64,000 bases of DNA from Thermocrinis albus DSM 14484 (GTDB lineage: Bacteria; Aquificota; Aquificia; Aquificales; Aquificaceae). The notes under the pieces were generated by a model. It saw nothing but the letters and a program-made list of their open reading frames with translations, ran no database searches and had not been told where the DNA came from. The position numbers were made by a program, and so were the translations under genes. The DNA lies in assembly GCF_000025605.1 (NCBI RefSeq), contig NC_013894.1, positions 605,529-669,528 on the forward strand, read 5' to 3'. Position 1 is the stretch's first letter. Each line of letters starts with the position of its first letter. Below are positions 22,946 to 40,601 of the stretch, piece after piece.

Positions 22946-23026
22946 CCCATCTTCGGGTGCCGGGCTATTTGTAACGCGCCCTTTAATGGGTGTCCAGAGA
23001 CCCGGCAGGCGCCATTTGGACACCCA
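22946..23026 (-). ncRNA. Structured RNA element, copy A (between forG and forE)
   Basis: On the minus strand the element starts 19 nt after the forG stop and ends 17 nt before the forE ATG. Helix 1 pairs 23026-23018 with 22995-22987 (9 bp). Its loop contains GCGCCT (23012-23007), able to pair with GGGCGC (22981-22976). The loop also holds TGCCGGGT (23007-23000), able to pair with GCCCGGCA (22965-22958). A CCC/GGG hairpin (22957-22946) closes the element. A-rich joints AAAT, TTAAA and TACAAATA are shared with the other copies. No known family recognised. Confidence 0.7.
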
Positions 23027-23045
23027 TATTAAGAATTTTATATGA

Positions 23046-23729
23046 TCAGCCGGTGAGAGCTTCTTCCTCAACCCATCCCCTTTCCTCTGCTATACGGAAG
23101 GCTTCCCTTATAACCTGCATGTTCTTCTCCAGCAGCTCCATCTTCTTCTTGAACTTCTTTTCTATAGCACTGTCCAAGGCCGTTGTCCCACCCGAAGCCA
23201 CGAAGGTGTTACCTAAGAATCTCTCCCTCACAGCTTGCTCAATGTGTTCAAAGTTCACCAATCTGGTGATACCAAAGAACAGACCTATCATAGCCATGTT
23301 GGTGGCTAGCTCTGTACCCGCTACCTCCAGGGCCAGCTTTGTGGCGGGGAACATGTAAACTCGCGTGTTGAGTTCCTTAAGAACCTGCCAATCTTCGGGG
23401 GGAATTATATCGGCATCGGTGTTAATGATAACCATACCGTTTTCCTTGAGTCCCGAGTAAAAAGGCATAGTGTAAGACTTACCGTGAGTTATAACTTGAG
23501 GGTGATAGATCATTATCACGTTGGGGTAAACCACCTCTCCTACTTCGTAGATGGGCTCGTCTGAAACCCTCACGTAGGCCTCAACGGGTGCCATACGCTT
23601 CTCGGAACCGAAGAAAGGTACCAAAGTGGCGTACTTACCGGCCGCAGTCATAGCGTTACCAAGTATGTGGGCGGAGGTGACAACCCCCTGCCCACCGACA
23701 CCAGCTATCCTTATGTTATACCTTTTCAT
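23046..23729 (-). CDS. forG: 2-oxoacid:ferredoxin oxidoreductase gamma subunit
   Basis: A 227-residue gamma-type subunit: N-terminal IRIAGVGGQGVVTSAHILGNAM, central VYPNVIMIYHPQ, then ELATNMAMIGLFFGIT. It forms part of the complex that reductively carboxylates an acyl-CoA with ferredoxin. forB overlaps its start by four bases (ATGA). After its stop there is an AT-rich tract and RNA element copy A before forE. Gene order favours the For (2-oxoglutarate) over the Por (pyruvate) complex, but sequence comparison would be needed to separate them. Confidence 0.87.
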   Translation of the reverse strand: MKRYNIRIAGVGGQGVVTSAHILGNAMTAAGKYATLVPFFGSEKRMAPVEAYVRVSDEPIYEVGEVVYPNVIMIYHPQVITHGKSYTMPFYSGLKENGMVIINTDADIIPPEDWQVLKELNTRVYMFPATKLALEVAGTELATNMAMIGLFFGITRLVNFEHIEQAVRERFLGNTFVASGGTTALDSAIEKKFKKKMELLEKNMQVIREAFRIAEERGWVEEEALTG

Positions 23730-24592
23730 GCCTTCACCTCCTGTTGCTCCTTCTCCAGGTTCTCGAAGAACTCTCTTACTTCATCTGTCATCCACTCGTA
23801 GAAGGCAAAATCTTGCTTTTCCCTCTTTCTGGCATCTTCCAACACCTTCTCTGTGGGTATAGAGTACTCTATGTTACAGGATGTGTAAGCGTGTATGAAG
23901 GTAGGACCAAAGTGTCTGGCTGCCAGTATGGCCCTTCTTATAACCTTAGCTATTCTCTTGGGGTTAGTGGGTGCCAGCTTTGCCACGTACACGCATCCCG
24001 CTACTTTAGCCAGCTCCACAGCGTTTATTTTGTCGAACTGCTTTCCTTTTGGAGCCATTTTAAGCTGAACACCCTTGGGTGACATACCGCTCTCTTGTCC
24101 ACCGGTGTTGCCGTAAACCTCGTTATCCACCATGATGGTGGTGAACTTCTCTCTTCTGAACCAAGAGTGCATGGTCATACCGAAACCTATATCAATGAGA
24201 CCTCCGTCACCTGCTATAACCACCACGTCTTTCACTTTGTCGGGGAACCTTATCGTTAGAGCTCTCTTGAGACCAGAGGCCACAGCGTTAGTGTCACCGT
24301 AGTTACCATAGATGAAGGGAACGGCAGCCTGTGACAGAGCAAGTCTCGCACAACCCGCTGTACCTATCACTATGGTGTCCTCGGGATTGGGAAGGGCAGC
24401 GTAGAACACCCTTATGAAGTAGGCCATAAAGCACCCTGCACACATAGGGTGTTCTTCCACCAACTCCTTAAACTGTCCCAGTTGCTGCACATCTACCTGT
24501 CTGCCGAACTGGCCATACTTGACCAGGTCCACGTAATCCTTTGGCATGTATCTTTCAAAACCTGGAGAAATCCTCACATACTCCAGACCCAT
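23726..24592 (-). CDS. forB: 2-oxoacid:ferredoxin oxidoreductase beta subunit (TPP-binding)
   Basis: A 288-residue beta subunit that binds thiamine diphosphate and an Fe-S cluster. Visible features are the CAGC pair near residue 51, a further cysteine in GTAGCARLA, the TPP/Mg motif GDGGLIDIGFGMT near residue 147, DNEVYGNTGGQ near 176, and SCNIEYS for the late cysteine. GGAGGTGTTAAC precedes the ATG. It follows forA by 21 nt and overlaps forG by four. Confidence 0.9.
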   Translation of the reverse strand: MGLEYVRISPGFERYMPKDYVDLVKYGQFGRQVDVQQLGQFKELVEEHPMCAGCFMAYFIRVFYAALPNPEDTIVIGTAGCARLALSQAAVPFIYGNYGDTNAVASGLKRALTIRFPDKVKDVVVIAGDGGLIDIGFGMTMHSWFRREKFTTIMVDNEVYGNTGGQESGMSPKGVQLKMAPKGKQFDKINAVELAKVAGCVYVAKLAPTNPKRIAKVIRRAILAARHFGPTFIHAYTSCNIEYSIPTEKVLEDARKREKQDFAFYEWMTDEVREFFENLEKEQQEVKA

Positions 24593-24613
24593 GTTAACAC
24601 CTCCTTAAAGTTT

Positions 24614-25783
24614 TTATACCACCACTTTTCTTTCCTTCTTGATGCCAAAAGCATCGTAAATCTTTTCCATAATAAGCTCTACGGGGAGAGTCATACCACC
24701 GTAGACCCTCGGTCCACCTATCACTATGTCGTTGTTGGGAAGGACCGCTTTAACTTCCTTAGCCAACCATCCCACTATGTTGTGCTCCGGCACTATCACC
24801 GCCTTTGCCTTCCTGAGAACTTCCCTTATCTCTCTCTCAGGGAAGGGTCTTATAGACTTTACCTTTACGAGGCCTACGTTGAGACCTTCCATCTGAGCAT
24901 ACCTAACCGCTTCCCTTCCTTGGGCTGCAGCACAGCCAGAGGCCACTACAAAGACCTCCGCATCAGGATTAACCACCTCAATGGGGCCTCCCAGATATTT
25001 ATAAATGTACTTCATGGCCCTTATGTTGGAGGACCAAACCTCCTGTTGCCATACAGCGTGTATAAGGTAACTCATGAAGTTGGACTTTTGAACGGGAGCG
25101 TCTCTCTGTATACGTGCAGGTGGTATCTCACAGTCGGTAGGAGGAACGGGGGCTTTGTAAGGATCTCTGGGAGGGAGTTTCATGTCCTCAGGTGTCATGT
25201 TAACGTAACCTTTGGCGTGGGTAACAAAGAAGCCTTCCGTACAGACCGCCACAGGTATGTACACGTCTACCTTCTCTGCTATTACGAAAGCTGCGAGGGT
25301 AAAGTCAAAAACATCCTGCTGGTTTTCTGCATGTAACACCACCATACCGCAGTGAAGGAGGTAGGCTATCTCCACATTGTCAGGCTGTATGGAGAGGGGT
25401 GCGTTCACCACCCTTGTGAGGACACCCAAAACCGCGGGGAGTCTGTGACCGGGCCACGAAGCTATAGCCTCCAGACCTCTCAGAAGACCTGGTCCTGAGG
25501 TAGCGGTAAAGGCTCTCGCTCCACCTCTCACAGCACCCGCTATAGCGGACATAGCGCCGTACTCTTCTTCTGCTCTGTAGTAATCTCTGAGATAACCCTG
25601 TGCCCACAAATCCCCCACCAGGTGCATCACTTCAGACTGAGGTGTTATGGGATAGGCTATCGCTATGTCCACGTTGGCACGTTTCACAGCCTCGGCCATA
25701 GCCTGGGCACCTGTTATAAACTTACGCTCTCTAGGTGCCTCTAAGAGAAGGTAATCGGCATCTACTACTCTCTGTTCAGGCAT
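24614..25783 (-). CDS. forA: 2-oxoacid:ferredoxin oxidoreductase alpha subunit
   Basis: A 389-residue alpha subunit (pyrimidine-binding half of the TPP fold). It has AIAYPITPQSEVMH, EEEYGAMSAIAGAVRGGARAFTATSGPGL and a C-terminal transketolase-like domain with VKSIRPFPEREIREV and PEHNIVGWLAKEV. Start ATG 25783 follows GGAAGGGGAG by 2-3 nt. An in-frame GTG-type start at 25807 would lie within the terminal hairpin of RNA element copy B and is rejected. Supplies the acyl-CoA binding half of the enzyme that fixes CO2 in the reductive TCA cycle. Confidence 0.88.
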   Translation of the reverse strand: MPEQRVVDADYLLLEAPRERKFITGAQAMAEAVKRANVDIAIAYPITPQSEVMHLVGDLWAQGYLRDYYRAEEEYGAMSAIAGAVRGGARAFTATSGPGLLRGLEAIASWPGHRLPAVLGVLTRVVNAPLSIQPDNVEIAYLLHCGMVVLHAENQQDVFDFTLAAFVIAEKVDVYIPVAVCTEGFFVTHAKGYVNMTPEDMKLPPRDPYKAPVPPTDCEIPPARIQRDAPVQKSNFMSYLIHAVWQQEVWSSNIRAMKYIYKYLGGPIEVVNPDAEVFVVASGCAAAQGREAVRYAQMEGLNVGLVKVKSIRPFPEREIREVLRKAKAVIVPEHNIVGWLAKEVKAVLPNNDIVIGGPRVYGGMTLPVELIMEKIYDAFGIKKERKVVV

Positions 25784-25798
25784 GTCTCCCCTTCCTAA

Positions 25799-25886
25799 CC
25801 CAGACATCTCGTGTCTGGGGCCGGGCTATTTTTAACGCGCCCTTTGAGGGTGTCCAGAGACCCGGCAGGCGCCATTTGGACACCCT
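25799..25886 (-). ncRNA. Structured RNA element, copy B (between forD and forA)
   Basis: Starts 8 nt after the forD stop and ends 15 nt before the forA ATG on the minus strand. It is almost identical to copy A through all three interlocking helices. Helix 1 is 9 bp with an A-T closing pair unlike copy A, so the closing pair covaries. The joint reads TTAAAAATA and the third helix loses its last pair. The terminal hairpin is longer (CCCAGACA/TGTCTGGG, 25819-25799) and unrelated in sequence to that of copy A. It ends next to the ribosome site. Confidence 0.7.
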
Positions 25887-25894
25887 TAAACTCA

Positions 25895-26611
25895 TCATTC
25901 TGTCTCCGTAACTTGCTCTCCTCTTCTGGGTATGAGGAGATAGGCGTACTCTCCGTAATCTAGAACGGAGAGTGTCTCGTAGTTTTCCGGCGGTAGAGAT
26001 GGGTTTTCTGGTGGAAGTTTGGGCTCCCACTCTATGCCCATCTCCTTCCTCACCTGCACTACCACATTCTTGAATCTCCTTATCTCCTCTGCATGAACAT
26101 CTCTCAGGGACACCATAGCGTCCTCGTGTCCCATCTCGGCGCACAGAGCTATGGTGAAGCAGTTGGTACCAGCTCTTATCATTCTGAGAGATAGGTTAGC
26201 ATAGTGACAGTGCACACCCACAAATATAGCTACCTCTATTTTGTTGTGAAGGATCGTGAGGTTGGGGTGGTTGGGATTTATCTCCGCTTCCGGATCTATT
26301 TTGGGATACTTAGGTCTGTAGTCCGGCATAGGAATTATCCTGCAGTTGGGTATTTCCATAGCCAGCTCTAGCACGGCTTTTGCCTTCTCCATAGCACTGG
26401 CGTTCCACCCCCACAGAACAAGAGGACCCGGAAATATGGTGGGATTCCTTCTGGTGAGGAGGGCCTTGGCGGCCTCACGCATGGCCACCTCTTCGTCCAC
26501 TATTTCTCCATAAAGAAGAGCCTTGCCAGGTGGTGGAAGCTCTACGCCTTCAAAGGCTGGAGGCGTAGGTATATAACCGGCCGGCCCAGGAACCACCTTC
26601 ATCTTCTGCAT
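25895..26611 (-). CDS. forD: Fifth (delta-like) subunit of 2-oxoacid:ferredoxin oxidoreductase, CdhB/CO-dehydrogenase-epsilon-like
   Basis: A 238-residue first gene of the forDABGE-type operon. The centre (GPLVLWGWNASAMEKAKAVLELAMEIPNCRIIPMPDYRP, read in pieces from about residue 66) and VAIFVGVHCHYANLSLRMIRAG resemble the small CO dehydrogenase/acetyl-CoA synthase epsilon fold, which is found in the five-subunit enzymes of Aquificales. The start is ATG 26611, 4 nt after GGAGGTG. A longer frame to 26671 would begin upstream of the predicted transcription start. Its catalytic role is unknown; it may bind CoA or nucleotide. Confidence 0.78.
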   Translation of the reverse strand: MQKMKVVPGPAGYIPTPPAFEGVELPPPGKALLYGEIVDEEVAMREAAKALLTRRNPTIFPGPLVLWGWNASAMEKAKAVLELAMEIPNCRIIPMPDYRPKYPKIDPEAEINPNHPNLTILHNKIEVAIFVGVHCHYANLSLRMIRAGTNCFTIALCAEMGHEDAMVSLRDVHAEEIRRFKNVVVQVRKEMGIEWEPKLPPENPSLPPENYETLSVLDYGEYAYLLIPRRGEQVTETE

Positions 26612-26643
26612 ACTGCACCTCCAGGCTTTTGGTGGTTTTTCAA

Positions 26644-26671
26644 ATATTAGCATGGGGTAATACCTTGTCAA
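26644..26671 (-). promoter_or_regulatory. Promoter of the forDABGE-sbt operon
   Basis: A consensus TTGACA (26671-26666), 16-nt spacer and TAATAT (26649-26644) on the minus strand, with GGAGGTG further down before the forD ATG. It is the best sigma-70 promoter in the window and the only convincing one found for the ten genes downstream. The divergent korA promoter must lie in the adjacent AT-rich 80 bp but is not clear. Confidence 0.75.
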
Positions 26672-26753
26672 GCGGGAACTATATGATTAAAATCTTAATG
26701 ATTTAAGCTATGTAAGCGTATGTTTATATTTACAATGGCACGGAGGTGAAGGT

Positions 26754-28574
26754 ATGTGGGATCTGACCGTTAAGATAGGTGGAGAAGGTGGAGAAGGTGT
26801 CATATCAGCCGGAGACTTCCTTACGGAAGCCTGTGCCAGGGCGGGATATTGGGTGGTTAACTTCAAGAGCTTCCCGGCGGAGATAAAGGGTGGGTACGCT
26901 CAGTCAGTGGTCCGTGTATCGGACGAGAGACTTTTCTCAACAGGTGACAGCTTTGACGTGCTTTGCTGTTTCAACGGCGAAGCCTATGAATTCAACAAAA
27001 AGCATCTTGTAGGTGGTACCGTAATGGTGTACGACAGTTCCGACTTTGAACCAGAGGACCACGATGGCGTGATCATGTATCCCGTTCCTCTCTCGTATCT
27101 CGCAAGGGACGTTATGAAGGCTTATATAACTAAGAACGTTATAGCCTTGGGTGTTTTGTGTGGCCTGCTAGATGTACCCGTGGAACCTATAAAGGAATCC
27201 ATAAAGGCCAAGTTTGGGAGAAAAGGAAGTCAAGTGGTGGACATGAACCTCAGAGCTCTGGAGCTGGGACTTGACTTTGCAAAGAGGGAACTTACGAAGA
27301 GAGACCCCTACCGTTTTCCACCTGCGAAGGAACCTATGGACGTAGTTATTATGGAAGGGAATCAGGCTATAGCGAAGGGTGCCGTGGTGGCAGGCTGTAA
27401 GTTTTACGCGGCGTATCCCATAACACCAGCTACAACAGTGGGTAATTACATAGTGGAGGACCTTATACGTACAGGTGGCTGGCTGTATCAGGCTGAGGAC
27501 GAGATAGCCTCTTTGGGTATGGCCCTAGGAGCGTCTTTTGCCGGTGTGAAGGCGATGACCGCTACCTCCGGTCCAGGCCTCTCACTTATGACGGAATTTC
27601 TCTCCTACTCCGGCATGACGGAACTTCCCGTTGTTATAGTGGATGTCCAGAGGGTAGGGCCTGCTACAGGTATGCCCACAAAACACGAGCAGGGAGATCT
27701 ATACCATGCTGTTTTTGGAGGGCACGGTGAGTTCCCACGAGCTGTCCTAGCACCTATCTCTGTAGAAGACAGCTTCTACATGACCATAGAGGCCTTCAAT
27801 CTTGCCGAAAAATACCAAATACCCGTCATTCTGTTAACAGATGCATCCATGTCTCTGAGAACGGAGTCCTTCCCTTCTCCTCGTCTTAAGGACATAAAGA
27901 TTGTAGATAGATGGGTCTATAAGGCCAGTGAAGATCCGGAGGGAAGATTTAGAAGGGCAGGTCGTTTTCTGCGATACGCTCTGTTTACTTCTGACGGAAT
28001 AACACCCATGGGTACACCAGGTGATCCTGATGCTATACATGCCGTAACGGGACTAGAAAGGCAGGAAAACTCAGATCCCAGAAACAGACCCGATGTGAGA
28101 ACGTGGCAGATGGAAAAGCGTTTTAAGAAGCTTGAGAAACTCCTTAGAGAAGATGCGGAGAGATTTTACGAGATAGACGGACCCTTTGATAAGGCGGAGT
28201 TGGGCTTGATAACGTGGGGTCTTACAGCCTCAGTAACCAAAGAAGCCGTAAGAAGGCTCAGAAACAGAGGTGTGAAGGTGAACGCTCTTTACATCAAACT
28301 TCTCTATCCCTTAAGGGGTGATGTGGTGGAGAGGTTTGCCGAAAGGTGCGAAAGAGTTGTGGTTCCTGAAAGTAACTGGAGCGGTCAGTTGGCCACTCTG
28401 CTGAGAGCCTTTTCCCACGTAAGACCCATAAGCTACTGCGTTTACAGGGGCGAGCCCTTTATCCCCAAAGAGATAGAAGATCTGGTAGTCTACCTTCTGG
28501 AAAACCCAACCTTAACTGAAGGTAGGCTAACACCTTCCCACCTTTATGGGGAGAAATCTTACGGACTGATATGA
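26754..28574 (+). CDS. korA: 2-oxoglutarate:ferredoxin oxidoreductase alpha subunit (gamma-alpha fusion)
   Basis: A 606-residue fusion of a gamma domain (KIGGEGGEGVISAGDFLTEA at the start, to about residue 190) and an alpha domain (AAYPITPATTVGNYI, EDEIASLGMALGASFAGVKAMTATSGPGLSL, KHEQGDLYHAVFGG). This architecture is that of the two-subunit KorAB enzymes which carboxylate succinyl-CoA to 2-oxoglutarate in the reductive TCA cycle. A strong GGAGGTGAAGG precedes the ATG. It is divergent from the five-subunit operon. After its stop comes RNA element copy D, then korB. Confidence 0.92.
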   Translation: MWDLTVKIGGEGGEGVISAGDFLTEACARAGYWVVNFKSFPAEIKGGYAQSVVRVSDERLFSTGDSFDVLCCFNGEAYEFNKKHLVGGTVMVYDSSDFEPEDHDGVIMYPVPLSYLARDVMKAYITKNVIALGVLCGLLDVPVEPIKESIKAKFGRKGSQVVDMNLRALELGLDFAKRELTKRDPYRFPPAKEPMDVVIMEGNQAIAKGAVVAGCKFYAAYPITPATTVGNYIVEDLIRTGGWLYQAEDEIASLGMALGASFAGVKAMTATSGPGLSLMTEFLSYSGMTELPVVIVDVQRVGPATGMPTKHEQGDLYHAVFGGHGEFPRAVLAPISVEDSFYMTIEAFNLAEKYQIPVILLTDASMSLRTESFPSPRLKDIKIVDRWVYKASEDPEGRFRRAGRFLRYALFTSDGITPMGTPGDPDAIHAVTGLERQENSDPRNRPDVRTWQMEKRFKKLEKLLREDAERFYEIDGPFDKAELGLITWGLTASVTKEAVRRLRNRGVKVNALYIKLLYPLRGDVVERFAERCERVVVPESNWSGQLATLLRAFSHVRPISYCVYRGEPFIPKEIEDLVVYLLENPTLTEGRLTPSHLYGEKSYGLI

Positions 28575-28578
28575 AACT

Positions 28579-28683
28579 GGGTGGCCAAATACCGCCTGCG
28601 GGGGCCATGGCCACCTTGAAGAGGCGGGATACAAATACCCCCGCACCTGGGCTGTGTGAGTTTGCACAGCTTGGGTAACCAGG
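28579..28683 (+). ncRNA. Structured RNA element, copy D (between korA and korB)
   Basis: Starts 4 nt after the korA stop and ends 7 nt before the korB ATG. It keeps the architecture of copies A-C with different sequence. Helix 1 pairs GGGTGGCC (28579-28586) with GGCCACCT (28609-28616). Helix 2 pairs CCGCCT (28592-28597) with AGGCGG (28622-28627). Helix 3 pairs TGCGGGGG (28597-28604) with CCCCCGCA (28638-28645). AAATA and TACAAATA joints are conserved. The terminal hairpin is larger, CCTGG/CCAGG around GCTGTG/CACAGC. The compensatory changes in all three helices against the other copies are the main support. Confidence 0.72.
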
Positions 28684-28690
28684 TTCCAAT

Positions 28691-29566
28691 ATGTTGAAAC
28701 CAGCCGACTATAGGAGTGATGTTGAACCTACGTGGTGTGCCGGATGTGGAGACTTTGGTGTTCTCGCTGCCATAACTCGTGCTTTTGCTGAGCTGGGCTT
28801 AGAACCTCACCGGGTAGTGTCTGTCTCCGGCATAGGTTGTTCTTCGAGGCTTCCCCTCTTCCTCAAAAACTACTCCATACACACCCTCCACGGCAGGGCC
28901 ATACCGGTGGCTATAGGTGTGAAACTGGCAAGACCGGATCTTACCGTTATAGTGGAAACGGGGGATGGTGATCTCTTTTCCATAGGTGCCGGTCATAATC
29001 CCCATGCTGCCAGAAGGAATGTGGATATCACCGTACTGTGTATGGATAACCAGGTCTACGGCCTTACTAAGAACCAGGTATCTCCCACATCAAGGGAATG
29101 GCTTTACGGGTCCCTCACACCCTATGGATCCATAGACAGACCTCTCAACCCTATCGCCACCATGTTGGCCTTTGGTGCCACTTTTGTAGCACAGACTTAT
29201 GCCGGTAACTTACAACACATGACGTATGTTATTAAGGAGGCCATAAAACACAGGGGATTCTCCTTCGTTAACATAATCTCTCCCTGTCCCACCTTTAACA
29301 GAGTGGACACATTTCAGTACTACAAGGGTAAAGTGAAAGATATCAACCAGTTGGGTCACGATCCGTCCAGTTACGAAGCTGCCCTCCGTGTGGCTTTTCA
29401 TGATCTGGACCATTATTATGATCCGGAGGCACCTGTTCCCATAGGGATATTCTACAGAGTTCAGATGGAAACTTACGAAGAACGTATGGCAAAGGTAAAG
29501 GCTCGATACGGAGGTTTAGAGGACCTTCAGGAAATCATAGATGCCTGCAAACCCAAGAGGGTTTAG
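28691..29566 (+). CDS. korB: 2-oxoglutarate:ferredoxin oxidoreductase beta subunit
   Basis: A 291-residue beta subunit. WCAGCGDFGVLAA near residue 16 gives two Fe-S cysteines, SGIGCSSRL a third, GDGDLFSIGAGHN (about 96) is the TPP/Mg motif, MDNQVYGLTKNQVSPTS follows, and SPCPTFN provides the late cysteine. It forms the TPP-binding half of KorAB. No clear Shine-Dalgarno lies in the 7 nt between RNA element D and the ATG, so the element may control its translation (inference). Confidence 0.93.
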   Translation: MLKPADYRSDVEPTWCAGCGDFGVLAAITRAFAELGLEPHRVVSVSGIGCSSRLPLFLKNYSIHTLHGRAIPVAIGVKLARPDLTVIVETGDGDLFSIGAGHNPHAARRNVDITVLCMDNQVYGLTKNQVSPTSREWLYGSLTPYGSIDRPLNPIATMLAFGATFVAQTYAGNLQHMTYVIKEAIKHRGFSFVNIISPCPTFNRVDTFQYYKGKVKDINQLGHDPSSYEAALRVAFHDLDHYYDPEAPVPIGIFYRVQMETYEERMAKVKARYGGLEDLQEIIDACKPKRV

Positions 29567-29570
29567 TGGT

Positions 29571-30189: not shown

Positions 30190-30190
30190 A

Positions 30191-33970: not shown

Positions 33971-33973
33971 GCC

Positions 33974-35218
33974 ATGATCCATCACGTCGGGCTGGCAACG
34001 GATCTTTACGAACTTACCATGGCACAAAGCTATCTGGAACATGGTAAAACAGGTAGGGCCGTTTTTAGCCTCTTTGTGAGGAAACTTCCCGAAAGGAGGA
34101 ACTTTCTCGTTTCTGCAGGACTTGAAACCCTCATGGGTCTTTTGGAAAAGTTCCGATTTGGAGACACTGAGCTACGATATCTTAGATCTTTGGGTATCTT
34201 CAAAGACTGGTTTCTTGATTACCTTAGGGAGTACGATCCCTTCAGGTGCCAGTTTTACGCCTTGCCGGAAGGGACCATCTTCTTCCACAACGAACCAGTA
34301 CTGCAGGTGGAAGGGTCTCTTCCCGATGCTCAGATACTGGAGACTCTCGTCATGAACGTCATTCACTTTGAGACACTGGTGGCCTCTAAAGCGGTAAGGA
34401 GTTATCTTGTAGCAGGTGGGAAGGTTCTCATAGACTTTGGTCTTCGTAGATCCCACTCGCCTCTAGCGGGACTTTTGGCAGCTAGAGCCTCTTATTTGGC
34501 AGGTTTTATGGGAACTTCCAACCTCCAGGCAGGTATGCTGTACGGCATTCCGGTGTTGGGTACCATGGCTCATTCTTTCGTTATGGTTTTTGAGGATGAG
34601 GAAGAGGCTTTTAGAGCCTTTGCAGAAAGTTTCCCCGATAGGACAGTTTTACTTATAGACACCTACGACACATTAGAAGGTGCCAAAAAGGCGATAAAGC
34701 TTATGAAAGAGGGGATAAAAGTAGTGGGTGTGAGGATAGACAGTGGAGACATAGCCCAGCTGTGTTGGGAGGTGAGAGATCTGTTGGACAGGGAAGGTTT
34801 TTCTCACGTGAAGATAGTGGTAAGTGGCGGTGTAGATGAGGAAGATATAGAGCGATGGGTTTCCCAAAATGTACCCATAGACATTTTGGGGGTGGGTACC
34901 AAAATGGTGGTGTCTGCCGATGCGCCTTATCTAGATATAGCCTATAAGCTGGTAGAGTACGAAGGAAAACCCAAGTTTAAGCTGAGTCCCGGGAAGGCCA
35001 CCTTTCCCTACAAAAGACAGATAGTGCGGGAGAAGGAAGGTGGGTTCTTCGTAAAGGACAGGGTGATAAGGTACACAGAAGAGGGTCTTGTACAGAAGGT
35101 AAGACTTCCTGTACCTTCCCTAAAGGAAGCTCGTGAGAGACTTATGGAACAACTTTCCCAGCTTCCACCTGCCCTCAGATCCTTACAGAAGGCTCAGTAT
35201 CCTGTGGAGATAGAGTAG
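33974..35218 (+). CDS. pncB: Nicotinate phosphoribosyltransferase
   Basis: NAD salvage enzyme, 414 residues. It begins LATDLYELTMAQSYLEHG and has FSLFVRKLPERRNFLVSAGLE, DFGLRRSHSP (about residue 156), the active-site region GIPVLGTMAHSFVM (about 191-204), and VGVRIDSGDIAQLCWEVRDLL (about 252). Typical of the shorter thermophile-type enzyme. It has no Shine-Dalgarno: the bases before the ATG are the right end of the transposon, so the insertion appears to have replaced its native promoter and leader. The end overlaps argB by 44 bp in convergent orientation. Confidence 0.93.
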   Translation: MIHHVGLATDLYELTMAQSYLEHGKTGRAVFSLFVRKLPERRNFLVSAGLETLMGLLEKFRFGDTELRYLRSLGIFKDWFLDYLREYDPFRCQFYALPEGTIFFHNEPVLQVEGSLPDAQILETLVMNVIHFETLVASKAVRSYLVAGGKVLIDFGLRRSHSPLAGLLAARASYLAGFMGTSNLQAGMLYGIPVLGTMAHSFVMVFEDEEEAFRAFAESFPDRTVLLIDTYDTLEGAKKAIKLMKEGIKVVGVRIDSGDIAQLCWEVRDLLDREGFSHVKIVVSGGVDEEDIERWVSQNVPIDILGVGTKMVVSADAPYLDIAYKLVEYEGKPKFKLSPGKATFPYKRQIVREKEGGFFVKDRVIRYTEEGLVQKVRLPVPSLKEARERLMEQLSQLPPALRSLQKAQYPVEIE

Positions 35219-36107
35219 AAACCACTTCTGTCCCTATGCCTTCGTCGGTGAAAACTTCCAGAAGGATGGCGTGAGGTACCCTCCCGTCTATGATGTGGAC
35301 CTTCCTCACACCCATAGCCAACGATCTTAGAGCACTCTTTACCTTAGGAAGCATGCCACCCTTTATGACACCCTCTTTTATCAGGCGGTATGCTTCGTCC
35401 GGCGTTAGTGTTGGAATCACGCGACCCTCTGCGTCCTTTATCCCCTCTGTATCTGTCATAAAGATTATCTTTTCGGCTTTTAAGGCAGCTGCCACTTCAC
35501 AGGCTACTAAATCGGCGTTTATGTTGTAGGCTTCCCCTTCATCCCCTACCCCCACCGGAGCTATCACAGGTATGTAACCTTTCTCCAGCAAAGTCCTAAG
35601 GAGCTCTACATTCACCTCTTCCACCTCCCCTACAAAACCTAGGTCTTCCTCCGGTGGCTCAAGACCCAACTCCCTGAAGTACCTCACTTTATCCAGTTTT
35701 CTGGCTTTTATGAGCTGTCCGTCCCTACCGGAAAGACCCACCGCATAAACTTTTTTACCACTGTGGGTGTTGATGAGAGCCACTATGTCCTTGTTGATGT
35801 CTCCAGACAGGACCATCTCCACCACGTGCATGGTTTCTTGATCCGTCTTTCTCATACCCCCTACGAAGTGAGGCTTTATACCCATCTTTTCCAAGGTTTT
35901 GCTGATCTGAGGACCTCCACCATGAACAACCACCACCTTTATACCTACGTAACTCAGGAGCACTACATCCCTGGCAAAACTGTCCCTCAAACCCTCCTCC
36001 ACCATAGCTGAACCACCGTACTTGATGACGAATACTTTTCCGTAAAACTCCCTTATGTAAGGTAAAGCGGACTGAAGTATCTTGGCACGGTATATTAGTT
36101 CCTCCAC
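35175..36107 (-). CDS. argB: Acetylglutamate kinase
   Basis: Second step of arginine synthesis. The 310-residue amino acid kinase has VIKYGGSAM near residue 28, VVVHGGGPQI near 61, GLSGRDGQLI near 124, YNINADLVACEVAAAL near 195 and GGMLPKV near 248. The longer N-terminal helix (EELIYRAKILQSALPYIREFYG) is the form found in arginine-sensitive hexameric enzymes. The GTG start at 36107 lies 7 nt after TAAAAT (36120-36115), so the message may be leaderless. The 3' end overlaps pncB by 44 bp. Confidence 0.94.
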   Translation of the reverse strand: MEELIYRAKILQSALPYIREFYGKVFVIKYGGSAMVEEGLRDSFARDVVLLSYVGIKVVVVHGGGPQISKTLEKMGIKPHFVGGMRKTDQETMHVVEMVLSGDINKDIVALINTHSGKKVYAVGLSGRDGQLIKARKLDKVRYFRELGLEPPEEDLGFVGEVEEVNVELLRTLLEKGYIPVIAPVGVGDEGEAYNINADLVACEVAAALKAEKIIFMTDTEGIKDAEGRVIPTLTPDEAYRLIKEGVIKGGMLPKVKSALRSLAMGVRKVHIIDGRVPHAILLEVFTDEGIGTEVVSTLSPQDTEPSVRI

Positions 36108-36318
36108 AAAGTGTATTTTAGCAGAAAAGTCCCTTCTAGGATCTTCTTTCCCTGATATACGAGATTGTTATCCCTGACCCCAAAAACGAAAGTTGAAAAA
36201 AGAATGCGCTATAAGAAACTTTACAGCATTGCTTCCGACCCCCGTTTGCTCTTTGAAGTCGCATTTTGTTTCTCATAAGCTATAGTATAAAAGCTTGATC
36301 CCCCTTCTTACTCTCCTT

Positions 36319-36349
36319 TAATGTAAAATAAATTCTCCTGCATGACCTT
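36319..36349. repeat. 31-bp direct repeat, copy 1
   Basis: This unit starts TAATGTAAAATAAATTCTCC and ends CATGACCTT. It is identical in 30 of 31 positions to the second copy. The two copies are 96 bp apart, measured start to start. Confidence 0.85.
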
Positions 36350-36414
36350 ACTGAAACCTTTGTCTTTCAACGCTTTGCTGTAGATATCTAAACCTGTTTT
36401 TTAGTGTTTGCAGA

Positions 36415-36445
36415 TAATGTAAAATAAATTCTCCTACATGACCTT
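36415..36445. repeat. 31-bp direct repeat, copy 2
   Basis: Second copy of the unit at 36319-36349, differing at one base (CTCCTACATG against CTCCTGCATG). No third copy or Cas gene was seen in the window. Confidence 0.85.
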
Positions 36446-36494
36446 GTGTATGCATTGTCCACTATGAAAAATTAAACTTTTTTGGATAGATAGC

Positions 36495-36557
36495 AGCCCC
36501 GGACCTAAAAACGCTATAAATCCTTGATACTTTTTACATTTGGCTAAGCCCGGGGCT
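36495..36557. repeat. 63-bp segment bounded by an 8-bp inverted repeat
   Basis: AGCCCCGG (36495-36502) and its exact complement CCGGGGCT (36550-36557) flank an AT-rich core. In RNA it would be a GC-capped long hairpin; in DNA it could be a small transposon remnant. It lies just beyond the obgE stop, so a 3'-end role for obgE is also possible. Confidence 0.55.
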
Positions 36558-36584
36558 ATACTTTATTATAATCCAGCTGAGAAT

Positions 36585-37598
36585 TTATGCAACATGTTTG
36601 ACAGTTCCTACATACACACTCCACAAGGTATCCACCAGTTGATCAAGGCCCTCACCGGTAACGGCAGACACAGCCAGAAAGGGATATCCCATGTCTTCAA
36701 AGGTTCTTTTCAAAGTATCCAGTTTTGTCCTGTCGCTGAGAGCGTCCAGTTTTGTCCCCACCACTATCTGTGGTTTCTTGAGAAGTTCCTCACTGTACTC
36801 GCCTAGCTCTTTGTTTACTATCCTGAAAGCCTCCACAGGATCCATACTGGCACCGTCCGATATATCCACAAGGTGAAGGAGGATCCTCGTTCTTTCTATG
36901 TGGCGTAAAAACTCGTGTCCCAGTCCTCTTCCTTGAGAGGCACCTTCTATGAGTCCAGGTATGTCGGCCAGTACAAGTCTTCTCTCTTCGTCTATCTCTA
37001 AAACACCTAGCACAGGACTCAGAGTGGTAAAGGGATAGTCAGCTATCTTTGGTCTTGCTCTCGTAAGTTTAGAGATTAGGGTGGATTTTCCTGCGTTGGG
37101 AAGCCCTACGAGACCTACATCCGCTATAAGTTTCAGCTCCAGTATTATCCAGCGCTCTTCTCCCTCCTGTCCTTTCTCTGCGTACCTGGGTGCCTGATGG
37201 GTGGGTGTAGCGAACCTTGCGTTACCTCTACCACCTCTTCCTCCCTTTGCCACCACACATCTCTGACCCTCCTCCACTATGTCACAGATCACCTCACCAG
37301 TTAATGCATCCTTCACTACAGTCCCAAGGGGAACTTCTAGCACCAGATCCTCTCCGTCTTTTCCATGTTGGTTCTTCCCTTTACCGTGTTCTCCATCTTT
37401 AGCTTTGAAATGTTTCTTGTACTTAAAGTCCAAGAGAGTATGCTTTCTGGATGTGCCCACTAAAATCACGCTCCCCCCGTTCCCTCCATCACCTCCGGCA
37501 GGTCCTCCAAAGGGTCTGTACTTTTCTCTGAGGAAGGCTACCGCTCCATCTCCACCTCTTCCGCCCTTTACCCATATCTTCACCCGATCCACAAACAT
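36585..37598 (-). CDS. obgE: GTPase Obg/CgtA
   Basis: Ribosome-assembly GTPase, 337 residues. The glycine-rich Obg domain occupies residues 1-156 (FVDRVKIWVKGGRGGDGAVAF, GGPAGGDGGNGG, GGRGGRGNARF). The G domain has GLPNAGKSTL near residue 166, DIPGLIEGA near 212 and TKLD near 280. There is no extended acidic C-terminal tail. TAATAT (37612-37607) ends 8 nt before the ATG and no Shine-Dalgarno is present, so the message is probably leaderless. Confidence 0.95.
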   Translation of the reverse strand: MFVDRVKIWVKGGRGGDGAVAFLREKYRPFGGPAGGDGGNGGSVILVGTSRKHTLLDFKYKKHFKAKDGEHGKGKNQHGKDGEDLVLEVPLGTVVKDALTGEVICDIVEEGQRCVVAKGGRGGRGNARFATPTHQAPRYAEKGQEGEERWIILELKLIADVGLVGLPNAGKSTLISKLTRARPKIADYPFTTLSPVLGVLEIDEERRLVLADIPGLIEGASQGRGLGHEFLRHIERTRILLHLVDISDGASMDPVEAFRIVNKELGEYSEELLKKPQIVVGTKLDALSDRTKLDTLKRTFEDMGYPFLAVSAVTGEGLDQLVDTLWSVYVGTVKHVA

Positions 37599-37627
37599 GG
37601 TGCTACATATTAAAATACATCAGTGCT

Positions 37628-38065
37628 ATGGAATACAGAGGGTGTAAGATACCGGAAGACCTTTACTATGACATAGAAAACCAGGTTTGGTATAAGCTGG
37701 AGGAAGATGGCACCGTAAGGGTTGGTGCCACCGACGTGGGACAGACACGAGCCGGTAGGATGGTGAACGTACGTATAAAGCCTCCCGGTAAACATGTTCC
37801 GAAAGGAAAACCTATAGCTTCTCTGGAAAGTGGTAAATGGACAGGTCCTATACCCGCCGTCATAGAGGGTGAGGTGGTGGAACGGAACGAGAAACTCTTC
37901 GATCAGCCGGATCTCATAAACGATGACCCATACGGAGAGGGCTGGATCGCCAGAATAAAACCGGTCAATTTGGAAAGGGATCTTAAGGATCTCCTCACAG
38001 GACAGGAAGCGGTAAGGGCCATGAAGGAGTACATAGACAGGGAAGGTGTGGAGTGTAAAGGTTAG
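37628..38065 (+). CDS. GcvH-like lipoyl protein, possibly the LbpA type of sulfur oxidation
   Basis: A 145-residue lipoyl-domain protein resembling glycine cleavage H protein (VWYKLEEDGTVRVGATDVGQTRAG; NDDPYGEGWIARIKP). The lipoylated lysine lies in SLESGKWTGPIPA (about residue 74). Ordinary GcvH usually has ESVKA at this point. The ESGKW form is the one described for lipoate-binding proteins (LbpA) that work with the sHdr sulfur-oxidation complex in Aquificales and others. No hdr or gcv genes are in the window, so the assignment is open. A TAAAAT box lies 11 nt before the ATG, next to the divergent obgE promoter. Confidence 0.72.
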   Translation: MEYRGCKIPEDLYYDIENQVWYKLEEDGTVRVGATDVGQTRAGRMVNVRIKPPGKHVPKGKPIASLESGKWTGPIPAVIEGEVVERNEKLFDQPDLINDDPYGEGWIARIKPVNLERDLKDLLTGQEAVRAMKEYIDREGVECKG

Positions 38066-38541
38066 GGACAGTTGAACTTTTCACGAAGTTTCACCTCCAC
38101 ATAAGGATGTACTAGGCCTGACACACAACCGCAGTAAGAAGCTATGTCCCTCACGATGGTGGAACTTATATGGATGTACTCTTGAGATGGCATCATGAAT
38201 ACCGTCTCTACACCGGCCAGTTTGAAGTTGTTTAGGGCTATCTGAAGTTCGTACTCAAAGTCTGTAAAAAGTCTGACGCCTCGCACGATGAGCCTTATGT
38301 TCTCCCTTCTCATGAAGTCTACCAGAAGACCCTCAAACCACCTTACCTTTACGTTGGGAAGATCTTCCACCATCTTGGCGAACATATCCACTCGCTCCTC
38401 TACCGAAAAGAGGAGGTTCTTGCGAGGGCTTTTGGCCACCGCCACTATCACCTCGTCGAACACTGCGCAGCTTCTTCTTACTATATCCAAGTGTCCCAGA
38501 TGGGGAGGGTCAAAAGTTCCCGGATAAACCACCTTCGTCAT
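38062..38541 (-). CDS. coaD: Phosphopantetheine adenylyltransferase
   Basis: Penultimate step of coenzyme A synthesis. The 159-residue nucleotidyltransferase has YPGTFDPPHLGHLDIV near residue 6, VRGVRLFTDFEYELQIALNN near 87 and the ISSTIVRDIA motif near 126. It overlaps rsmD by 32 bp at its start, a common rsmD-coaD pairing in bacteria, and its stop overlaps the convergent lipoyl-protein gene by four bases. Confidence 0.95.
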   Translation of the reverse strand: MTKVVYPGTFDPPHLGHLDIVRRSCAVFDEVIVAVAKSPRKNLLFSVEERVDMFAKMVEDLPNVKVRWFEGLLVDFMRRENIRLIVRGVRLFTDFEYELQIALNNFKLAGVETVFMMPSQEYIHISSTIVRDIASYCGCVSGLVHPYVEVKLREKFNCP

Positions 38542-38995
38542 GTTCCTTCCTCCATATGGAGAGTACGGTATCCCCGTACCTTCTTACCTCATGGGCACCG
38601 AAGTTTTTGTCTTTTCTGTGCTCCAATATAAAGATGCCCCCAGGTTTCAGCTTTTTTATGGATAATTCTATGAGTTTTTCGTAATTTTTGTAGTCATAAG
38701 GTGGATCTGCAAATATTATATCAGCCTCCTCATTCATACCGATTAGGAACTGTAGTGCATCCATTTTGTAGACATTTTTCCCAACCTTTCCCTTTATAAT
38801 TTCGGCAAGTTTCTGATTTTTTTCCACAAAAATAACCCTTGCACCCCTCTCCAAAGCCGTCATACCTATCTGACCTGTACCTGCAAACAAATCCAAGAAA
38901 AGCTTCTCCCTTATATCCCCCAGTATGTTAAAGACAGCCTGTTTTACGAGGGAGGAAGTGGGTCTGAGGCGGCTTTTACCTGTTGATTTTTTCAT
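38510..38995 (-). CDS. rsmD: 16S rRNA (guanine966-N2)-methyltransferase
   Basis: A 161-residue SAM-dependent methyltransferase: RPTSSLVKQAVFNIL near residue 11, SAM motif LDLFAGTGQIGMTALERGA near 33 and catalytic DPPYDY near 95. ATG 38995 is chosen because TATAAT (39008-39003) ends 7 nt upstream; a longer frame would reach across that promoter into the speD leader. Slightly shorter than E. coli RsmD. coaD follows with a 32-bp overlap. Confidence 0.92.
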   Translation of the reverse strand: MKKSTGKSRLRPTSSLVKQAVFNILGDIREKLFLDLFAGTGQIGMTALERGARVIFVEKNQKLAEIIKGKVGKNVYKMDALQFLIGMNEEADIIFADPPYDYKNYEKLIELSIKKLKPGGIFILEHRKDKNFGAHEVRRYGDTVLSIWRKEHDEGGLSGNF

Positions 38996-39010
38996 AAAGT
39001 GTATTATAAT
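38983..39010 (+). promoter_or_regulatory. Promoter of the speD leader, sharing its -10 with rsmD
   Basis: TTGATT (38983-38988), a 16-nt spacer and TATAAT (39005-39010) direct plus-strand transcription toward the small leader ORF and speD. The overlapping ATTATAAT also reads TATAAT on the minus strand (39008-39003), 7 nt before the rsmD ATG. Confidence 0.6.
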
Positions 39011-39038
39011 GTATCTTCTGTTTGAAAGGAGGTTTGAC

Positions 39039-39119
39039 ATGTGGTGGCTTTTTAAACTTCTCAAAAATCTTGACAAGGAGGAGAAGAAATGGCAAAAGCC
39101 CTCGGACTGCATATCATAG
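39039..39119 (+). CDS. 26-residue leader ORF overlapping speD
   Basis: An AAAGGAGG (about 39026-39032) lies 6 nt before an ATG that opens a 26-codon ORF rich in W, K and L (MWWLFKLLKNLDKEEKKW then QKPSDCIS). The ORF contains the speD ribosome site (AAGGAGGAG) as its Asp-Lys-Glu-Glu codons. It ends at a TAG 28 nt inside speD in another frame. Its ribosome site is stronger than most in the window, so ribosomes should translate it and meet the speD start. A role in coupling or in polyamine/SAM-dependent control is inference. Confidence 0.55.
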   Translation: MWWLFKLLKNLDKEEKKWQKPSDCIS

Positions 39120-39484
39120 CGGACCTGCACGGTGTAAACCCTGAACTCATAGACAGGGTGGAAGACATAAGACACCTGCTGGAAACGGCGGTGAAGGTGG
39201 CCGGCCTTACCAAGATCTCCTCTCACTACTATCAGTTTCAACCTCACGGTGCCACAGGTGTGGTTCTATTGGCGGAGTCCCACATCTCCATTCACACGTG
39301 GCCAGAACACGGTCTTGCCACGGTAGACGTGTACACGTGTGGAGATCCGGCCAAGGCCTACAAAGCTATGGACTACATCATTTCCCATCTTGAACCCAGC
39401 AGGGTGGATAAACAGGTTCATGAGCGAGGAATAGTGGAAGAGTCCGAGGGTTACCAGTTGCCACAGGTTCTTCTTAGGGTATAA
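39089..39484 (+). CDS. speD: S-adenosylmethionine decarboxylase proenzyme
   Basis: Produces decarboxylated SAM for polyamine synthesis. The 131-residue class 1B proenzyme begins ALGLHIIADLHG. It carries the self-cleavage site ESHISIHTWPEHGLATVDVYTCG (Ser near residue 67 becomes the pyruvoyl group; His and Cys catalytic residues follow). AAGGAGGAG stands 5 nt before the ATG, within the leader ORF. Its stop codon overlaps the -10 box of the following tRNA-Ala. Confidence 0.95.
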   Translation: MAKALGLHIIADLHGVNPELIDRVEDIRHLLETAVKVAGLTKISSHYYQFQPHGATGVVLLAESHISIHTWPEHGLATVDVYTCGDPAKAYKAMDYIISHLEPSRVDKQVHERGIVEESEGYQLPQVLLRV

Positions 39485-39485
39485 T
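39458..39485 (+). promoter_or_regulatory. Promoter of tRNA-Ala
   Basis: TTGCCA (39458-39463), a 16-nt spacer and TATAAT (39480-39485) lie across the last codons of speD, with the -10 overlapping its stop codon. Transcription would start about 9 nt before the tRNA. Confidence 0.65.
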
Positions 39486-39500
39486 AGTTAATATAAGGTA

Positions 39501-39575
39501 GGGGCGGTAGCTCAGTGGGAGAGCGCCTGCTTGGCGTGTAGGAGGTCGGGGGTTCGAATCCCCTCCGCTCCACCA
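39501..39575 (+). tRNA. tRNA-Ala (anticodon GGC)
   Basis: The acceptor pairs GGGGCGG with CCGCTCC and the discriminator is A. The anticodon stem CCTGC/GTAGG encloses loop TTGGCGT (anticodon GGC), and the T arm is GGTTCGAATCC. Unlike the other complete tRNAs of this window, CCA is encoded (39573-39575). It is convergent with infC, whose stop codon starts one base after the CCA. Confidence 0.96.
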
Positions 39576-39576
39576 T

Positions 39577-40092
39577 TTACTTTTTCTTGGGAAGTAAAGC
39601 GAAGGACAGAAAGTTTCCCTCCTTCTTGGGAGGAGATTCCAGCTGACTCACGTCGGAGAGTTCTTCCAGTATTCTCTGTACCAGACGATCTCCCAGTTCG
39701 GGGTGTAAATTTTCCCTACCCCTGAACCTTATCCTCACCCTCACCTTATCTCCGTCCTCGAGGAACTCCCTCATGTGTTTTAGCTTCACCTTAAGGTCAT
39801 GTTCATCTATGCGCGGGTTCATCATAATATCCTTCACTTCCATAGAGTGTTCTTTCTGTTTCTTACGAGCCTCTTTCTCTTTCTTTCTAAGTTCGTAAAG
39901 AAACTTACCGTAGTCCAGCAGTTTGCATACGGGAGGGTTAGCATTTGGAGCCACTTCCACCAGATCCAACCCCCTCTCTTCCGCTATCTTCAGAGCCTCT
40001 TGCAACGGTACTATGCCTATCTGCTTTCCCGTCTCATCGATAAGCCTAACCTCCTTTGCCCTTATCTGTCTGTTTATCCTGTAGTTTTGCAT
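39577..40092 (-). CDS. infC: Translation initiation factor IF-3
   Basis: A 171-residue IF-3: N-domain NYRINRQIRAKEVRLIDETGKQIGIVPLQEAL, then the conserved DYGKFLYELRKKEKEARKKQ linker and a C-domain with RIDEHDLKVKLKHMREFLEDGDKVRVRIRFRGRE. An ordinary AUG start (40092) follows AAAGGTG; a GTG two codons upstream is less likely. The rare AUU start used for autoregulation in E. coli is not present. rpmI and rplT do not follow. Structured RNA element copy C ends 13 nt before its start. Confidence 0.95.
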   Translation of the reverse strand: MQNYRINRQIRAKEVRLIDETGKQIGIVPLQEALKIAEERGLDLVEVAPNANPPVCKLLDYGKFLYELRKKEKEARKKQKEHSMEVKDIMMNPRIDEHDLKVKLKHMREFLEDGDKVRVRIRFRGRENLHPELGDRLVQRILEELSDVSQLESPPKKEGNFLSFALLPKKK

Positions 40093-40601
40093 GCACACCT
40101 TTCTGACCGGACGTACTCTGTCCGGTGCCGGGCTATTTGTATAGCGCCCTTTAGGCTGAGGATGTACCCGGCAGGCGCTATTTCCCCAGCCTTGTGTTCA
40201 TTTACTGTGTGAAAAAGATGGTACATAGCCACAAAAAACTGCAGCAAGAAGAGGGAAAGAGACAGATAAGAGAGTCTTCTGAAACGTACCCTCATGGGAT
40301 GATGGACAGATATAAGGTCTATGTTACCTAACTTCCTCTTCTCTTTCTTCATATACAAGGAGAGAGAATAACTCAGTAAGAGCAGTGAAAGAAGGACAAT
40401 GTCCATGAGCTTTAAACCACCCAGAACAATCTTCAGCATCAACAAAGACAGAGCCACCATGTAAAATCTGGCCAGTATCCTACCGTAAAATCTACCTGCT
40501 AGATCCTTGTACTCTTTCTCTCTGAGTAACACGGGTGCTACAACGCTCACCAGCATAAAGAGGGATCCGGTGTAGAGAGAGAGAAGAAGCACCTCAATCA
40601 T
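40074..40601 (-). CDS. DUF4149/TMEM205-like membrane protein with a C-terminus read through an RNA element
   Basis: A 175-residue frame with four hydrophobic segments in about residues 1-135 (LLLSLYTGSLFMLVSVVAPVLL; MVALSLLMLKIVLGGLKL; MDIVLLSLLLLSYSLSLYM; LSLSLFLLQFFVAMYHLF) and an RVRFRRLSYLSLS stretch, like DUF4149/TMEM205 proteins. After HTVNEHK the frame has no stop. It passes through the whole of RNA element copy C, adding a polar, basic tail of about 40 residues, and ends inside infC. This looks as if the element displaced the original stop codon. The start overlaps the diguanylate cyclase stop by 8 nt. Confidence 0.65.
   Translation of the reverse strand: MIEVLLLSLYTGSLFMLVSVVAPVLLREKEYKDLAGRFYGRILARFYMVALSLLMLKIVLGGLKLMDIVLLSLLLLSYSLSLYMKKEKRKLGNIDLISVHHPMRVRFRRLSYLSLSLFLLQFFVAMYHLFHTVNEHKAGEIAPAGYILSLKGAIQIARHRTEYVRSERCACKTTG
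40106..40181 (-). ncRNA. Structured RNA element, copy C (upstream of infC)
   Basis: Minus strand. Helix 1 GGCTGGGG (40181-40174) pairs with CCTCAGCC in eight pairs with a sequence different from copies A, B and D. GCGCCT and TGCCGGGT in the loop pair with downstream GGGCGC and GCCCGGCA as in copy A. The joints AAATA, TAAA and TATACAAATA are conserved. The terminal hairpin is ACCGGAC/GTCCGGT (40126-40106), ending 13 nt before the infC ATG and just ahead of its AAAGGTG. Unlike the other copies, its 5' half lies inside an upstream reading frame. Confidence 0.7.

Follow-up and report, generated by a model that had tools for sequence, protein, structure and literature searches.

What is the structured RNA that lies directly in front of four start codons in this window, the 64-kb stretch of DNA analysed here, and how did it come to be there? 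The initial annotation described four copies with one shared order of parts, and all four are present in the sequence. The core coordinates below are covariance-model matches converted to window coordinates. Copy C is a real copy, but the interval first given for it lacks roughly 10 nt on its 5' side and leaves out the 5' strand of helix 1. The features are as follows.

22954 to 23026, minus strand: core of copy A with its three helices, intergenic and upstream of forE; helix 1 is GGGTGTCC/GGACACCC, helix 2 is GCGCC(T)/GGGCGC and helix 3 is TGCCGGG/CCCGGCA.
22929 to 22953, minus strand: 3' tail of copy A, a short hairpin and the ribosome-binding region; the forE ATG is at 22928.
25815 to 25886, minus strand: core of copy B, upstream of forA.
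25784 to 25814, minus strand: terminal hairpin of copy B (CCAGACA..TGTCTGG) and Shine-Dalgarno sequence; the forA ATG is at 25783.
28578 to 28649, plus strand: core of copy D, upstream of korB.
28650 to 28690, plus strand: terminal hairpin of copy D and the transposon-type right end GGGTAACCAGG; the korB ATG is at 28691.
40122 to 40192, minus strand: core of copy C, upstream of infC; helix 1 is GGCTGGGG/CCTCAGCC.
40093 to 40121, minus strand: terminal hairpin of copy C (CCGGAC..GTCCGG) and ribosome-binding region; the infC ATG is at 40092.

The fold was assessed in an alignment of 68 sequences. With the helices in the order 1-2-3-1'-2'-3', in which all three cross each other, 96.9% of the pair cells pair compared to 78.7% after shuffling, and slides of 1, 2 or 3 nt all leave less than 50% paired. 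Sixteen pairs show changes on both sides, and the covariation score is 0.522 compared to 0.160. The support for helices 2 and 3 is not circular because the covariance model that made the alignment contained helix 1 and left both of them out. Helix 1 is also visible in an unguided MAFFT alignment. Covariation is weakest in helix 2, where 4 of 7 pairs are invariant. Some pairs read as G-U in the sense strand, such as the 30 U-G pairs at columns 34/72, and these point to the sense RNA. Minimum-energy folding gave z-scores of -0.5 to -2.8, which are uninformative since the method cannot represent crossing helices. Covariation suggests that the three helices form simultaneously; alternation between them is possible in principle. 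These data confirm the three-helix element, which had been proposed as a structured sense-strand RNA with crossing helices.

A covariance-model search found 35 copies in the window genome (G000) with E-values of 1e-15 to 1e-27. The start codon lies 21–43 nt beyond the core in all 35, in sense orientation, so the placement first noted at four sites holds across the genome. A reversed-pattern control gave 4 matches compared to 42 with the true pattern. The element is present in 85 of the 112 genomes of the order and is also found in thermophilic Firmicutes and other thermophiles. Chance or recent duplication alone, which would have undone the first proposal, is ruled out by the genome-wide matches, the same-genus comparison and the covariation that persists in the wider alignment. 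The 35 host genes include ribosomal protein genes, rpoA, rho, infC, tsf, hfq and ftsH and share no common pathway. The same hosts recur in different genomes: rho in G000 and G007, infC in G000 and G052, rpoA in G000 and g15/g16, metE in G000 and G034, and hfq in G000 and G014. A TATAAT resembling a -10 box lies 3–22 nt upstream of helix 1 in 13 of the 35 copies compared to 3.5 in control windows, a placement that would fit transcription of some messages from helix 1 onward.

The element belongs to no Rfam family, as the initial annotation had supposed. A search of the window with Rfam 15 at the gathering score returned only tRNAs, and no match at E≤5 overlapped the element at five copy-bearing loci. 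A known RNA family was rejected on this basis. A term search of the paper on Aquificales noncoding RNAs (PMC4227106) found no mention of the element. A search of open-licence papers for a link between TnpB and GGAGG, the Shine-Dalgarno sequence or the ribosome binding site yielded no description; an earlier description elsewhere is possible.

Relatives of the element in other genomes are linked to tnpB. The element sits at the tnpB right end, on the same strand, in 15 of the 29 loci and regions from the tnpB search, in several genera and with E-values of 1e-9 to 1e-26; tnpB-linked elements also occur in Firmicutes and other thermophiles. The TnpB proteins were identified by profiles TIGR01765, TIGR01766, and NF040570, and no PDB sequence matches the element-linked TnpB at E≤0.01. 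The tnpB frame reads through the element and stops at the TAA of TAACCAGG. The element overlaps the tnpB 3' end and the guide begins at the boundary, which by position would be the location of an omega RNA. In G051 (two copies) and G055, the end of an IS607 TnpA ORF (NF033518) coincides with the beginning of the tnpB match, which places a serine-recombinase TnpA directly upstream of tnpB. An NF033518 match adjoins a tnpB fragment in G008, and most tnpB copies in the other genomes have no adjoining tnpA match. The full-length relatives have neither inverted repeats nor a target duplication, and GG is found at both junctions. The empty site reads CTGGAAGGAGG joined to AGAGGTATGG, compared to CTGGAAGGAGG joined to TTAGCAACAGTTG...TAACCAGG joined to AGAGGTATGG in the filled site. 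About 20 transposon left ends directly follow GGAGG, which is the predicted TAM of the linked TnpB, and the right end closes with CCAGG. Because the transposon targets GGAGG, a Shine-Dalgarno sequence, the element always lies in sense just upstream of a start codon.

In the tnpB-linked copies, the loop of a hairpin further upstream can also pair with the bases that flank the guide, which gives a guide-proximal pseudoknot. Its 5' half (the C[CT]TGG loop) is present in 25 of 28 tnpB-linked copies and 1 of 35 copies in the window genome. Its 3' half, the right-end ACCAGG, is present in 26 of 28 and 3 of 35, copy D among the three. Covariation of this pseudoknot is one-sided (C-G to U-G), and its support comes from position and conservation. 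Nearly all copies of the window genome thus lack this pseudoknot, and in copy D just the 3' half survives. These data identify the element, almost certainly, as an omega-RNA scaffold from an IS607-type TnpB transposon and not, as first thought, as an independent riboswitch or ribozyme whose descent is obscure. An IS200/IS605 origin was rejected: the window genome has one Y1 transposase gene, but the GG ends and the adjoining serine TnpA are those of IS607. TnpB elements of the same genus (G003) and of G029 were rejected as the source; they form a separate group, marked by inverted repeats and by target duplications of about 9 bp, and the tested members gave no match to the R1 model of the element.

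What remains in the window genome is the RNA. A profile search found no match there to the element-linked TnpB, and inspection of the four window sites found no tnpB and no transposon left end; none of the four combines tnpA and/or tnpB with both ends. A single solo copy in that genome (104016) has both ends, with GGAGGTtgGCAACCGTTGAAA still joined to the element. The four window copies are absent from 6 of 6 same-genus genomes searched, and the forA site of copy B in the relative G003 reads GGAGGTAATACC-ATG without the element. The element is missing from 19 of 19 G003 orthologs of the host genes; in 16 of these, a GGAG/GGAGG-type site precedes the start. Identical cores in the window genome carry different terminal hairpins, which simple transposon deletion does not explain; cores seem to have been exchanged between copies.

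The comparison with characterized systems defines what is shared. As in the omega RNA (reRNA) of ISDra2 (PMC10097598) and ISXfa1 (PMC10711439), the RNA lies 3' of and overlapping tnpB and ends at the transposon right end, a hairpin lies just inside that end, and the loop of a 5' hairpin can pair with five guide-flanking nucleotides, here C[CU]UGG with CCAGG. The middle differs from both. Stems 2 and 3 of ISDra2 are nested with one pseudoknot in the cryo-EM structure (PMC10097598), and the ISXfa1 RNA is described as having three stem-loops and one pseudoknot (PMC10711439), unlike the three mutually crossing helices found here. A serine-recombinase TnpA adjoining TnpB (G051, G055), the lack of inverted repeats and target duplication, and GG at both junctions are shared with the IS607 family (PMC6188088, PMC10711439). 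Reported IS607 insertions require only (G)GG (PMC6188088, PMC10711439) and a GGG TAM was reported for ISXfa1 TnpB (PMC10711439), whereas the target here is GGAGG, giving sense insertion between the Shine-Dalgarno sequence and the start codon, and many copies are tnpB-only or solo. IStrons combine a group I intron with IS605/IS607, and group B inserts at GG-containing sites (PMC4227781). They too are mobile elements that curb harm through an RNA feature, but no group I intron was seen here, and harm is curbed by insertion upstream of the start codon and a restored ribosome-binding site. TldRs are TnpB-derived RNA-guided transcription factors in which the protein is kept and remains RNA-guided (PMC13418256). 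They share the use of a domesticated part of a TnpB system in gene expression, but here the RNA alone is kept, lying in cis within the message.

Conservation of solo copies was compared at four loci outside the window, in genera g7, g11, g13/g18 and g15/g16. At htpX, rpoA, acpP and a TAT-protein gene, conservation of the solos extends over several species and genera. Identity between orthologous solos is 0.78–0.96 in the element, compared to 0.53–0.71 at codon position 3 and 0.49–0.63 in the upstream 31 nt. The element is the more conserved in 106 of 106 pairs, which share ancestry and are not independent counts. The htpX solos carry compensatory changes in helix 1. These data support selection on the solo copies in other genera, on some of them over very long periods, and we infer selection for the window copies as well. 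A strong Shine-Dalgarno site is a mark of high expression, and the housekeeping character of the host set may therefore reflect target choice and not benefit.

We consider it likely that these elements are domesticated omega-RNA scaffolds that act as rigid 5' leaders in cis. The copies in the window genome almost certainly correspond to the middle and 3' portions of an omega RNA from thermophile IS607-type TnpB transposons. Comparison of sites shows that the transposon enters immediately 3' of GGAGG, so that it separates the Shine-Dalgarno sequence from the start codon. At the right end, the omega RNA closes with a hairpin and CCAGG, which puts an AGG near the start codon and leaves the host gene readable. 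If the left end, tnpB and the guide-proximal hairpin on the 5' side were then lost, this would yield solos with three crossing helices and one hairpin, no longer usable as guides because those parts are deleted. Conservation in the other genera makes it probable that solo copies are retained by selection for a role in cis on the message, as may also hold in the window. Their most likely function, put forward tentatively, is to form a rigid and heat-stable leader, protecting the 5' end or an intergenic junction while leaving the ribosome-binding site free. A block against the exonuclease RNase J is unsupported in this form, since the window genome gave no match to TIGR00649, although that HMM is named for one subfamily.

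A host RNA-binding or ribosomal protein may instead have taken over a scaffold once bound by TnpB and now regulate translation downstream. Several hosts serve transcription or translation (rpoA, rho, infC, hfq, rpsK, rpsR, rpsT, rpsU), the recurrence upstream of rho, infC, rpoA, metE and hfq fits such a role, and the unpaired joints are conserved in solo copies. Tertiary contacts within the fold would explain these joints just as well, the hosts are otherwise unrelated and no common protein is known, which makes this explanation unlikely. Neutral debris is less probable still. Insertions without tnpB would be tolerated since the right end restores the ribosome-binding site, with the fold inherited and not selected; about 13 copies in the window genome have near-identical cores, one retains its left end, and the 19 same-genus orthologs tested are all empty. 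Against this reading, conservation of the solos in g7, g11, g13/g18 and g15/g16 far exceeds that of third codon positions and includes compensatory changes, and 27 invariant columns are kept in all 34 aligned copies of the window genome, which span several diverged subfamilies with no tnpB left.

The compact multi-pseudoknot fold, the conserved joints and the leader position would suit a riboswitch or a self-cleaving ribozyme that binds a metabolite or cuts the message between genes, but a guide-RNA scaffold origin accounts for fold and joints, and no Rfam riboswitch or ribozyme matches, leaving this very improbable. Ligand sensing, self-cleavage and the setting of subunit ratios, suggested at first, found no support, and 2-oxoglutarate or CoA is an unlikely ligand because the 35 host genes share no pathway. 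Trans-encoded omega RNAs are known in other systems, and the gene start occupies the guide position as in full transposons, but live guides served by TnpB or Cas12 in trans are hardly credible in a genome without TnpB of the matching family and with the guide-proximal pseudoknot gone from nearly all copies.

The domesticated-leader reading accounts for a repeat family that is absent from Rfam. A TnpB transposon with the Shine-Dalgarno sequence as its target would always enter a leader, in sense, and bring a substitute ribosome-binding site, which suits gene-dense genomes. The RNA alone would be domesticated, whereas known TnpB domestications keep the protein. In the papers found, these two points are not joined with an omega-RNA core in which covariation reveals three helices that all cross each other. 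GGAGG would be a new TAM for a thermostable RNA-guided nuclease. The 5'-leader modules lie upstream of rpoA, rho, infC, ribosomal-protein genes and others. There is about an even chance that a nuclease-free, domesticated guide-RNA scaffold constitutes a widespread class of cis 5' leaders built on a three-way crossing pseudoknot, which was spread by a Shine-Dalgarno-targeting TnpB transposon and may control or stabilize the messages of core genes in thermophiles.

All four window copies of the element show the order of parts described in the initial annotation, and the whole genome (G000; one contig, 1,500,577 bases) contains 35 copies. A start codon lies in sense 21-43 nt past the three-helix core (median 33) in 35/35 of them. 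There is no Rfam match, either over the window at gathering score or to the element at E<=5 on five loci with copies. The claimed covariation of the three helices was upheld in an alignment of 68 sequences from many genera that was fitted to helix 1 only, not helices 2 and 3. Standard pairs occupy 96.9% of the pair cells in this alignment, both-sided changes occur in 16/22 pairs, and pairing falls below 50% once the partners are slid by 1-3 nt. The sequence of helix 1 changes almost freely and is always matched by its partner (99.1% paired), and changes in helix 3 are matched in the same way (99.6% paired). The proof for helix 2 is weaker because it is mostly invariant, with a single strong C-G/G-C exchange (53 versus 14). 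An unguided alignment of the G000 copies gave the same helix pairing. The pairing order 1-2-3-1'-2'-3' means that each helix crosses the others. Neighboring helix pairs resemble ordinary H-type pseudoknots whose third loops are rich in A (AAA; UACAAAUA), which makes it plausible that all three helices could be folded at once.

The element is almost certainly the omega RNA (TnpB guide RNA) part of an IS607-type TnpB transposon. Several genomes carry it at a tnpB gene, whose right end it forms in the same orientation; matches to TIGR01765, TIGR01766, and NF040570 identify TnpB. The tnpB reading frame continues through the element to a TAA stop within TAACCAGG. In two-gene copies (twice in G051 and in G055), an IS607 serine TnpA ends where the tnpB match starts. 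An empty site in G024, CTGGAAGGAGG|AGAGGTATGG, fixes the exact transposon ends against its filled counterpart in G017, CTGGAAGGAGG|TTAGCAACAGTTG...TAACCAGG|AGAGGTATGG. This pair has no target duplication and GG at both junctions, traits that the transposon shares with IS607 (PMC6188088; PMC10711439). The tnpB-linked copies carry a hairpin 5' of helix 1, CCUGC...GCAGG with forms that covary by eye. Its loop, C[CU]UGG, is able to pair with the guide-adjacent CCAGG, and the halves are present in 25/28 and 26/28 tnpB-linked copies. This pairing matches the pseudoknot of ISDra2 (PMC10097598) and ISXfa1 (PMC10711439); mapped by order of parts, the three-helix module corresponds in position to ISDra2 stems 2-3 and the terminal hairpin to stem 4.

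Two G051 transposons (L135 and L136) are 96.6% identical overall, yet helix 1 is largely different and still pairs in both; from these sequences, helix 1 appears to be hypervariable to a degree that exceeds point mutation. The transposon left-end motif, ACAACAGTTGAAA (L204, L222, and L221), resembles a -35 promoter element for tnpB, and L204 reads TTGAAA-17 nt-TATAAT. TnpB-like elements of ~1.55 kb with inverted repeats (GAGGCTGTTCYAAAAATCC type) and target duplications of ~9-10 bp were found at L130-L134 (G029) and L140-L144 (G003), with no second ORF seen in the repeated unit. Such ends on an element with TnpB are unusual for IS605/IS607.

GGAGG directly precedes ~20 left ends. This motif is the Shine-Dalgarno sequence; insertions therefore fall in the gap from it to the start codon, in sense orientation, and this targeting explains the position and orientation of the element without any regulatory role. 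In most cases a possible start codon follows 1-10 nt after the transposon's own end, CCAGG, and this end would offer a replacement for the displaced Shine-Dalgarno. No match to this TnpB was found in G000, where the copies begin at helix 1, the guide-proximal hairpin motif is kept in 1/35, and the CCAGG end in only 3/35. One copy, at 104016, retains the left end joined to the element (GGAGGTtgGCAACCGTTGAAA...TGGGCACTC), which shows that the solo copies derive from the transposon. In G003, of the same genus, the element is absent from 19/19 orthologs, with a GGAG/GGAGG-type site before the start in 16 (these orthologs alone counted); forA and forE show the same there. G000 copies (L020, L029, L014, and L032) are mosaics, with identical cores joined to different terminal hairpins and shared hairpins to different cores, which suggests an exchange of cores between loci (concerted evolution).

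A model search found the element in 85/112 genomes and 21/22 genera of the order, at 1-35 copies per genome, and in none of six other genomes of the G000 genus. Matches listed from a GTDB pattern scan include Caldanaerobacter, Thermoanaerobacter, Fervidicola, Thermovorax, Tepidanaerobacteraceae, Thermosyntropha, Carboxydothermus, Caldisericum, and Desulfobacterota MAGs. Two MAGs, labelled Deltaproteobacteria and uncultured bacterium (L210 and L239), have a solo copy whose core carries AT-rich inserts; in both it follows an apparent tRNA gene end and precedes the same gene, possibly another old, vertically kept copy. Precedents exist for omega RNAs, IS607, and the domestication of TnpB; the literature searched yielded no omega RNA core with three crossing helices, no Shine-Dalgarno targeting by such a transposon, and no RNA-only domestication of a TnpB system.

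The G000 host genes, named from protein starts with an HMM check of the window genes only, include rpsK, rpsR, rpsT, rpsU, rplY, rpmF, tsf, infC, rpoA, rho, hfq (two), ftsH, a thioredoxin, ndk, ppa, glyA, metE, ilvC, nuoB, forA, forE, and korB. A TATAAT-like box lies 3-22 nt 5' of helix 1 in 13/35 copies versus 3.5 in control windows, so some messages may begin at helix 1. The function ranked first, tentatively, is a rigid leader that would shield the message end and keep the ribosome-binding site open. A leader bound by protein ranks second and is unlikely. Ligand binding and self-cleavage, both raised in the initial annotation, are without support. Some copies carry a short frame that begins at an upstream start codon, crosses the whole element, and stops beside the host start (ATGAGAAAAAGGGTG...GGGTAA):

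G000:1256254-1257198 (L037 and L044), short frame through the element
Window 25799-25900, short frame through the element

The tnpB read-through of the element is similar, and translational coupling via the short frame is possible.

A cross-species comparison took orthologous solo copies at htpX (8 genomes), rpoA (7), the gene of a TAT-signal protein (11), and acpP (3). Mean identity at these four loci is 0.78-0.96 for the element, 0.53-0.71 for third codon positions, and 0.49-0.63 for the upstream 31 nt. Element identity is the higher in 106/106 pairs, which are not independent and stand apart from the window copies. At htpX, helix 1 is paired in 8/8 and its changes are compensatory. This TnpB was unmatched in some of the genomes compared (e.g., G016, G035, G044, G046, G053, G054, and G057). 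The conservation and compensatory changes, with TnpB unmatched in some genomes, argue that the fold is probably kept by selection for a cis role.
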